In this document: positions 16,514-19,409 of the stretch, one piece after another
How the letters are laid out: every line of letters begins with the position of its first letter
How positions within the stretch are numbered: the first letter of the stretch is position 1
Source: Paenibacillus taiwanensis DSM 18679
Lineage (GTDB): Bacteria; Bacillota; Bacilli; Paenibacillales; Paenibacillaceae
Assembly: GCF_000425125.1 (NCBI RefSeq)
Contig: NZ_KE384306.1
Coordinates: forward strand, 769,705-833,704
Length of the DNA: 64,000 nucleotides
Direction of reading: 5' to 3'
The notes under the pieces: generated by a model
What the model was told of the DNA's origin: nothing
What the model saw: the letters and a program-made list of their open reading frames with translations, nothing else
The model's database searches: none
Position numbers and translations under genes: made by a program

Positions 16514-17158
16514 CTAGAAGGGAAGACGGATCGACCTCTTATAAAGAGGGAATAGCCACTTTACACCTCTTGGTGTGAGTGTGTCTGCTGCCAAATGAGA
16601 GACATATCCTAAAATTGCAGCCCACATAATACCTTCAAGCTGCAAATAGTGTTCCAGACCAGAGCCGATATATCCCCAGAGGAGGACGGCCCAGATCGTA
16701 TGTGTCATGCCTCGATGCTTGAGCCATGGCGCAATAGCGACAAACAAGCCGAGCAGCAGCAGCCAATCCATCTGTTCTCGAAATCCGAAGTAGACTACTA
16801 CGCAGCCAGCTAAACAGGCGAGTACGTTCCGAATAAATCCATCTCGTGCTACAATACCAAGCAGCATAACTGCGATGGCGCATAACGAGAGAGCTGGGGC
16901 TACCTCATAATTGTTGGCGTATAAATAGATGATACCTGTTACCATCAGCGCCCCCAACCACAGTCCTAGTTCACGCAGCAGCTTGGATACCTTCCCAAGC
17001 TTGCTTGTTAATAAACTTGGCCCATCCAGATCAGCACTGAGCGCTGAAAAGGCTGACACTGCAATGTAGAGTGTGGCATTGTGCCAAGTAAAGGGATAAT
17101 AGGCTGCAACTGCCACGCCGATTGCGCAGCCTATCCCAAGATGGGTCCTTCCTTTCAT
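16514..17158 (-). CDS. DUF457/YdjM-family membrane-bound metal-dependent hydrolase
   Basis: The 214-residue polytopic protein has the YdjM/YfhO-like N-terminal signature MKGRTHLGIGCAIG and SALSADLDGPSLLTSK. A second His-rich region reads HRGMTHTIWAVLLWG and GYVSHLAADTLTPRGV. These His and Asp residues are the presumed metal ligands of this family, and the enzymatic activity is uncharacterised. AAGGAGG fixes ATG 17158. E. coli YdjM is known to be under LexA control, and a LexA-box-like palindrome overlaps the start point of the promoter here. A divergent operon with a DUF4184 membrane protein lies next to it. Confidence 0.85.
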   Translation of the reverse strand: MKGRTHLGIGCAIGVAVAAYYPFTWHNATLYIAVSAFSALSADLDGPSLLTSKLGKVSKLLRELGLWLGALMVTGIIYLYANNYEVAPALSLCAIAVMLLGIVARDGFIRNVLACLAGCVVVYFGFREQMDWLLLLGLFVAIAPWLKHRGMTHTIWAVLLWGYIGSGLEHYLQLEGIMWAAILGYVSHLAADTLTPRGVKWLFPLYKRSIRLPF

Positions 17159-17194
17159 ATTGTCCTCCTTCATTATGTATATCTTGTTGTCGAT

Positions 17195-17245
17195 GCAAAC
17201 ATATGTTTGCTAATTCATTATACAGCAATGAGCCGAAGGAGACAA
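17195..17245 (-). promoter_or_regulatory. Promoter plus LexA/DinR-box-like palindrome
   Basis: On the minus strand TTGTCT (17240-17245) and TATAAT (17217-17222) are spaced by 17 bases. Immediately downstream, GCAAACATATGTTTGC (17195-17210) is a perfect 16-bp palindrome covering the expected start point. Its core CAAACATATGTTTG fits the Firmicute SOS box CGAACnnnnGTTYG except for one base in the left half. The right half GTTTG is an accepted variant. Confidence 0.6.
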
Positions 17246-17563: not shown

Positions 17564-18322
17564 ATGCCATTTACGTTGGCGCATCCAGCTGCTGTAGTTC
17601 CTTTGTATAAGCGAAAACATATGTTTTGCTTCACAGCGCTTGTGCTAGGAAGTATGGCACCTGATTTTGAATATTTTATATATTTCGAACCACACGGACT
17701 TATCGGACATTCATGGTTAGGTTTTTTGTATTTTAATTTGCCGCTTGTGTTCATATGCAGTTATCTTTATCACCGTATCGTAAAACGAATACTTATTCCA
17801 CATTTACCGGAACCAATCCCAACCTGGTATCGAACTCATGCCGTTTTGTCGTGGGAGATCCACTCCCTTTATTCCGTTATTAGATTTGTTTATTCTGCGC
17901 TGCTAGGTATGACTACCCATGTGTTGTGGGATGCCTTTACGCATGTGCAAGGTTATGCGGTCACTCGAATCCCTCTATTGGCGGCTTCGTTAGAGATTGG
18001 TCCCTGGCACGTTCCATTGTATAAGCTGGCCCAGCATGGCAGCACGCTTATCGGCGGTATTTGTGTGATCGTGTGGGCCTATCAAATTAGAGATAAGGAG
18101 CATGAACCTGCTCATTACATAGCGGTATCGGTAAAATGGACCTATTGGCTGCTGATTGCGATGACTACGTTAGCCATTTTTGGATTAAGCAGTTATTTGC
18201 GAGGAGGCATCTCTATTTATGCATACGGTATATGGATTGTATCGATGATGAGCAGTGCAGCCGCCGCGATTTTAATCGTTTCTTGCGGGTATCGTTTTGC
18301 ACCGTTCAACACAAAGCCTTAA
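17564..18322 (+). CDS. DUF4184-family membrane protein
   Basis: The 252-residue protein starts with the family signature MPFTLAHPAAVVPLYKRK and then GSMAPDFEYFIYF. Conserved His/Asp groups include GHSWLGFLYF and THVLWDAFTHVQGYAV, with about six TM segments. It is uncharacterised, but the His/Asp pattern in membrane helices recalls the YdjM-type metal hydrolase on the other side of the divergent promoter. AGGAGG in the preceding ORF provides the ribosome site. Confidence 0.82.
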   Translation: MPFTLAHPAAVVPLYKRKHMFCFTALVLGSMAPDFEYFIYFEPHGLIGHSWLGFLYFNLPLVFICSYLYHRIVKRILIPHLPEPIPTWYRTHAVLSWEIHSLYSVIRFVYSALLGMTTHVLWDAFTHVQGYAVTRIPLLAASLEIGPWHVPLYKLAQHGSTLIGGICVIVWAYQIRDKEHEPAHYIAVSVKWTYWLLIAMTTLAIFGLSSYLRGGISIYAYGIWIVSMMSSAAAAILIVSCGYRFAPFNTKP

Positions 18323-18392: not shown

Positions 18393-19409
18393 TCAACTCA
18401 AGTGGAGTGGCGGTATGCTGGATGCTCGAGTAATAAGAGAACATGGCAGCACCAGCTTGCGTGCAGGTTGTTCATTGTTCTGGATACGCTCAATAAGCAT
18501 TTGCATACCGAGAACGCCAAATTGATAAGCAGGCTGTGAAGCGACGGTTAGAAACGGTGACACTTCATCAGCTTGTCCGAAGTCATCAAAGCTTACTAAT
18601 GAGATGTCGTCGGGTACACGGACGTCCATCGAACGAAGCAGCTTTAACGTCTCCAGCGCAAGTATATTATTAGCTGCGAAAATGGCAGTAGGCCGATCCT
18701 CACGGTCCATCCAGCTACGGATTACTTCGCGATCACCACCAGTCTGATTATATTTCCATTCAGTAACATAGCTTGGATCTACAGGTAAGTCGTTCAGCTT
18801 TAAAGCTTCCACGTATCCATTTAAACGCTCACGTGCCGTAGAAACATGACTGGAGCCATTTACGAGCGCAATTCGGGTATGCCCTTGCTGAATGAGCAGT
18901 TCAACCAGCTTGCGCGCGCCATCTTTACTGTCGCCGATGACAGCATCCGCTGTAACGCCAGGCACCTCTCTGTCGAGCAGCACGAGCGGCATATTATTTT
19001 GTTGCAGCCGTTCCAAATGCGGCTTGGAATCGTCGCCGACAGGCGCAAACAAAACCCCGTCAACTCGCATGGAGAGAAAAGTGTCAACATACTCCTGCTC
19101 TTTTAGCAGACTTTCATCTGTGTTGCCAAACATCAGCTTGTAGCCATTACGGTTCGCAGCATCCTCTGCACCGCGTGCCACTGTAGTATAAAACGGGTTC
19201 GTAATATCTGTAATTAGCAACGTAATAATGTGACTTTGTTGCAGGACAAGGCTGCGCGCCATAGAATTGGGCACATAGTGTAAGTCTTTCATAATTTTCT
19301 TTACTTTGGCACGAGTCTTATCACTTACTCTGCCGTTATTGTTAATCACTCTCGACACCGTCATCGGTGATACGTTGGCAAGTTTGGCAATATCATATAT
19401 CGTGGTCAT
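18393..19409 (-). CDS. LacI-family transcriptional regulator
   Basis: The 338-residue repressor has an N-terminal LacI helix-turn-helix (TIYDIAKLANVSPMTVSRVI) and hinge helix (YVPNSMARSLV). A periplasmic-binding-protein-like effector domain follows, with the usual VDGVLFAPVGDD, VLLDREVPGV and ISLVSFDDFGQAD segments. It is divergent from the sugar-type operon starting at 19555. A LacI-type operator palindrome lies next to that operon's promoter, so local control is likely. The ligand is presumably a sugar or sugar acid from the decaying pathway. Confidence 0.93.
   Translation of the reverse strand: MTTIYDIAKLANVSPMTVSRVINNNGRVSDKTRAKVKKIMKDLHYVPNSMARSLVLQQSHIITLLITDITNPFYTTVARGAEDAANRNGYKLMFGNTDESLLKEQEYVDTFLSMRVDGVLFAPVGDDSKPHLERLQQNNMPLVLLDREVPGVTADAVIGDSKDGARKLVELLIQQGHTRIALVNGSSHVSTARERLNGYVEALKLNDLPVDPSYVTEWKYNQTGGDREVIRSWMDREDRPTAIFAANNILALETLKLLRSMDVRVPDDISLVSFDDFGQADEVSPFLTVASQPAYQFGVLGMQMLIERIQNNEQPARKLVLPCSLITRASSIPPLHLS

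Follow-up and report, generated by a model that had tools for sequence, protein, structure and literature searches.

LexA is a repressor that keeps genes off until DNA damage, and the job of YdjM in Escherichia coli is, to our knowledge, not established. The E. coli gene (ydjM, b1728) belongs to the LexA regulon according to PMC4576408, and a perfect CTGT-N8-ACAG lies 16 nt upstream of its start codon. In Gram-positive bacteria the LexA consensus is GAAC-N4-GTTC, and the YdjM-UDPGP-HlyIII operon of Staphylococcus aureus (SAOUHSC_02424-02422), with the SOS box CGAAAATATGTTCG, is listed as LexA-regulated by way of reference 22 of the review (both from PMC11442139). The suggestion in the preliminary description of this DNA that SOS control of YdjM spans distant phyla is not new, because it already follows from these publications on E. 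coli (PMC4576408) and S. aureus (PMC11442139). What is added here is the breadth of conservation and an odd, symmetric form of the box; we found no report of such a breadth of LexA-type boxes at ydjM in open-licence papers.

The locus lies in a stretch of 64,000 nucleotides from Paenibacillus taiwanensis DSM 18679, which is called the window below. It contains the following features:

17240-17245, minus strand: -35-like hexamer TTGTCT (sequence and promoter scan)
17217-17222, minus strand: -10 hexamer TATAAT, after a 17-nt spacer (sequence and promoter scan)
17195-17210, no strand: perfect 16-bp palindrome GCAAACATATGTTTGC, with the core CAAACATATGTTTG at 17196-17209; putative LexA operator, placed on top of the presumed transcription start
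17164-17170, minus strand: AAGGAGG, likely ribosome-binding site for the ATG at 17158 (sequence)
16514-17158, minus strand: gene of the ydjM family (PF04307) with a product of 214 aa if the likely start is used (profile match, alignment and model)

The promoter is of the sigma-A type and has 10 of the 12 consensus letters in a promoter scan, which returned 6 promoter-like sites in the scanned stretch against 2.4 expected. The arrangement given in the preliminary description, TTGTCT-17-TATAAT followed by a perfect 16-bp palindrome on the minus strand, was confirmed: 7 nt separate TATAAT from GCAAACATATGTTTGC, the palindrome abuts the promoter, and the presumed transcription start falls within it. 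The core had also been described as one base away from the Firmicute SOS box, which is wrong, as CAAACATATGTTTG departs from CGAACATATGTTCG at two positions, one in each half. The site reads AAAC/GTTT, with 6 of the 8 core letters of GAAC-N4-GTTC, and orthologues in other genera carry the full GAAC/GTTC at the same promoter. The gene behind the palindrome is indeed of the YdjM family, the open reading frame at 16514-17173 (minus strand) matching PF04307 with 75.1 bits against a cut-off of 29. Its start codon is likely the ATG at 17158 instead of 17173, because AAGGAGG stands in front of it and alignments with relatives begin at the same MKG/MRG. Next downstream, in the opposite orientation, comes a transporter gene of the AI-2E type, so that no further large gene follows on the ydjM strand, and ydjM looks like a single-gene unit. 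The DUF4184 membrane protein that had been noted as sharing the region is probably outside the system, because its gene was found beside ydjM only in the closest relative. A second palindrome, AAAACATATGTTTT, lies inside the DUF4184 gene (17614-17627) and has 16.1 bits on the LexA matrix introduced below; it is probably due to chance.

In an alignment of 38 YdjM sequences, H6, D43, D45, H148, H153, H188 and D192 (numbered from the likely start) are invariant, and a structure model of the protein has eight predicted helices. Nothing matched at E 0.001 in fold searches, which showed only partial helical look-alikes and no informative relative. YdjM is a polytopic membrane protein, and its conserved set of His and Asp residues suggests a metal-dependent hydrolase at the membrane, a membrane-embedded reading that the conserved residues and the eight helices fit. 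Like the window gene, E. coli ydjM encodes a membrane protein with HRGxTH and GYxSHxxAD motifs, and a perfect LexA box stands just ahead of it; its Gram-negative CTGT-N8-ACAG is, in contrast, unrelated in sequence, and the two proteins are 41% identical over only 68 residues. The S. aureus operon shares with the window a PF04307-type gene, LexA-regulated according to the review (PMC11442139). It differs in being a three-gene operon whose box has one GAAA half, whereas the window has a lone gene and a symmetric CAAAC/GTTTG palindrome.

In the genome of the window there is one LexA match, which exceeds the family cut-off and carries LexA_DNA_bind and S24 domains; RecA likewise has one match. As in the Gram-positive LexA regulon, its lexA, with a divergent LysM yneA-like neighbour, and recA stand behind boxes of the GAAC-N4-GTTC type, and the same holds across the genus (e.g. 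CGAACACACGTTTG, AGAACTTATGTTTG, CGAATGTATGTTCG). In the regulon of Bacillus subtilis we know of no ydjM member. Whereas uvrB stands behind a LexA box in B. subtilis, the 350 nt upstream of uvrB contain no full match to a relaxed box in any of the 19 genomes of the source genus, the best site having 13 of 14 letters. A LexA matrix was built from 30 distinct sites in the lexA and recA regions of the source genus, each with at least 7 of the 8 GAAC/GTTC letters, a rule that excluded A/A sites from the matrix by construction. Scoring the palindrome with a LexA matrix had been proposed as a check, and the outcome was favourable: the window core has 15.98 bits, within the training range of 13.6-18.0 and above the 14.4 of the recA site. 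The symmetric CAAAC/GTTTG form lies about 4 bits below CGAACATATGTTCG on this matrix.

Taken from the window alone, the site has no significance. One match to CGAACATATGTTCG with at most two mismatches was found against a mean of 0.23 expected, at least one such match arose in 20 of 100 shuffles of the window, a site scoring as well as the palindrome is expected 0.24 times per 64 kb, and some 19 random sites scoring as high are expected per genome. Neither CRAACRNRYGTTYG (8 and 4, against 10 and 7 in the control) nor GAAC-N4-GTTC (70 against 143) is enriched in the genome of the window. Such figures would suit a chance palindrome without function, inherited by common descent, and it is conservation ahead of orthologues, not the score in a single genome, that marks the palindrome as more than chance. 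A ydjM orthologue is present in 18 of the 19 genomes of the source genus, and in 16 of these 18 a -10 is followed by CAAACATAYGTTTG, that is, CAAACATA[T/C]GTTTG, in the form CAAACATATGTTTG or CAAACATACGTTTG; the copy at ydjM is the sole one in each of those 16 genomes. The remaining two (G004 and G012) have only GGAACATATGCTTG, with 8.8 bits, which overlaps a -35 (TTGCAT-17-TAGAAT) as read by eye. Among 295 Paenibacillaceae genomes the 14-mer was found in 66; outside the genus it occurs in 53 places, and a YdjM homologue adjoins it in 35 of the 50 examined. Against such an origin, orthologues about 50-60% identical in protein differ in the promoter DNA on either side but retain the 14 bp, and boxes recur in 14 genera, including one (g4) that carries a box although its YdjM is only 25-28% identical. 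We consider a functionless chance palindrome very unlikely; on this comparative evidence, the palindrome is real and functional.

The family-wide count rests on 138 Paenibacillaceae genomes with 109 YdjM homologues in 14 genera, for which about 250-270 nt upstream were scored at a threshold of 11 bits. A LexA-type box reaching it stands ahead of 77 of the 109, with at least one in each of the 14 genera that have a homologue, and the proposed check for conservation ahead of orthologues was thus positive in both genus and family. None of 109 in-gene control stretches (170 nt) reached 11 bits, 50 mononucleotide shuffles gave a mean of 1.06 boxes, and 300 palindrome-preserving permutations of the matrix gave a mean of 2.8 regions and at most 46, against the 77 observed. 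A TATAAT-like hexamer lies 2-14 nt ahead of 55 of the 77 boxes, against 6 of 77 at a control position.

The other 32 regions have no box at 11 bits, and the counts vary by genus: 11/13 in g1, 7/15 in g2, 4/12 in g7 and 3/5 in g9, with 7/13 in g13, 6/11 in g17 and 10/11 in g12. The boxes of g7 lie 148-218 nt upstream with no -10 beside them. A tree was made of 81 proteins, 63 of them with a box: the window's own and those of 80 named records, which come mostly from Paenibacillus and Cohnella. At least four changes separate box from no box on it, and the main boxless group contains P. harenae and its kin. At five loci of this group (L174, L176, L183, L185, L198) ydjM lies behind a gene of the same strand that was labelled AraC-like by eye.

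The palindrome might instead be the operator of another regulator, of the ArsR, TetR or MarR type or a LexA-like S24 paralogue, with a fortuitous resemblance to an SOS box. Such a regulator would fit the near fixation of CAAACATAYGTTTG in the source genus, once per genome, and at lexA and recA a relaxed scan of the 320 nt upstream found no A/A box (0 of 38 loci). In one family genome (L114) the same 14-mer, as CAAACATATGTTTG, stands ahead of a gene of the ArsR family, behind which comes a cation ATPase-like gene (by eye), and there it may be an ArsR site. Against this, ordinary GAAC-N4-GTTC boxes with different centres occupy the place in other genera. The plain GAAC box CGAACTATTGTTCT is present in 13 of 13 cases in g6, CGAACATATGTTTG or CGAACATACGTTTG in 5 of 11 in g17, CGAACATATGTTTG and CGAACGTATGTTTG in the two members of g3, and CAAACATATGTTCT or CAAACATACGTTCT in 4 of 5 in g18; GGAACAAACGTTCC occurs in one g9 and CGAACTGACGTTCG in one g2. 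The forms also switch within genera at the ydjM promoter (A/A 5 and A/G 5 in g12; A/A 1 and A/G 4 in g18; A/A 2, G/A 1 and G/G 4 in g2), and the tree requires at least five changes in which A/A gives way to a form containing a G half or the reverse. This switching between CAAAC/GTTTG and classical GAAC-N4-GTTC favours LexA, since passage through GAAC-N4-GTTC boxes with different centres is not expected of an unrelated dedicated regulator. The window's sole nearby regulator gene (LacI type, 18393-19409) was found beside ydjM only in the nearest relative, the other matches of that search being about 25% identical, and a LexA paralogue is not needed, as at E 0.001 only one LexA match exists in the genome. 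An operator of another regulator is, on balance, improbable.

The position of the palindrome over the presumed start point would also suit a function in RNA: a 5' hairpin would stabilise the ydjM transcript, with no DNA operator involved. The boxes of g4 and g6 lie, by eye, at the -35 region and hence outside the transcript, and an RNA that starts inside the palindrome would miss part of the hairpin, which leaves this explanation scarcely credible. We prefer to read the palindrome as a LexA operator (SOS box) that covers the start point of ydjM, and the comparative sequence evidence makes this reading very probable.

Beyond the family, we compared short and long PF04307 genes from a sample of 131 genomes of the class Bacilli, using 30 of the 31 short genes listed (<260 aa) and the best-scoring 30 long ones, all of them outside Paenibacillaceae. 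Among the matches listed, 12 of the 30 short genes reach 11 bits. Two of these sites were rejected as boxes because they look like terminators, leaving 10 of 30 plausible, in four families; none of the best 30 long genes listed exceeds 6.9 bits. Of the 30 in-gene stretches that served as control for this sample, 3 reached 15 bits. In one family (f80), probably the staphylococci, the short PF04307 genes have the S. aureus box CGAAAATATGTTCG in front of them at 4 of 9 loci and one-letter variants at 3 more. At three loci of this family (L458, L459, L460) the short YdjM gene has, besides the box in front of it, a 15-bit LexA-like site within its own sequence. The two other PF04307 genes of the window's own genome have 7.6 and 2.0 bits, and in a phylum sample only 1 of 70 PF04307 upstream regions reached 13 bits, itself from Paenibacillaceae; PF04307 genes in general are therefore not SOS-controlled.

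LexA-type sites were also met at other genes. Boxes of the form CGAACATATGTTTG and near forms stand ahead of phage-tail-like operons in the window's own genome (L007, G000:C2:159996) and at L031, L034, L041, L044 and L048, the label resting on a Pfam match to DUF3383 in L007 and L031 and on inspection by eye elsewhere; such loci are probably SOS-controlled prophages or tailocins. In the same genome (L008, G000:C2:280811), CAAACAAATGTTCG lies shortly behind a TATAAT and ahead of a gene with an HSDR_N domain and a sub-cut-off Eco57I match, possibly an SOS-linked restriction-modification enzyme. In three g18 genomes (L115, L116, L117), CAAACATAYGTTTG precedes a membrane-protein gene, which is DUF1361 in L116, the one tested. 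At L118 and L144, CAAACGTATGTTTG stands just ahead of a -10-like TATAAT or TATTAT, followed in L118 by a transposase-like gene (by eye).

If the palindrome is a LexA operator, a LexA dimer would cover the +1 region just behind the -10 when there is no DNA damage, and RNA polymerase would be blocked. On damage, RecA filaments on DNA would trigger the self-cleavage of LexA, the operator would be emptied, and YdjM would be made and then act at the membrane. The symmetric CAAAC/GTTTG form may be bound more weakly by LexA, given its score about 4 bits under that of CGAACATATGTTCG, and may permit early or leaky induction.

On the wider picture we are evenly divided: short YdjM would be a widely kept membrane effector of the SOS response, whose LexA control was held or regained across Bacilli and Proteobacteria while the sequence recognised by LexA changed completely (CTGT-N8-ACAG versus GAAC-N4-GTTC), part of the Paenibacillaceae having settled on a symmetric, weaker CAAAC-N4-GTTTG used almost for ydjM alone, perhaps with early or leaky induction. 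The ydjM promoters also offer a set of probable LexA operators, made by nature, in which the half-sites have changed between stronger and weaker letters at one promoter. That this wiring recurs in 14 genera of Paenibacillaceae, in four further families of Bacilli and in E. coli suggests that YdjM matters in DNA damage generally, and makes this neglected membrane protein a good target for studies of the membrane side of the SOS response.
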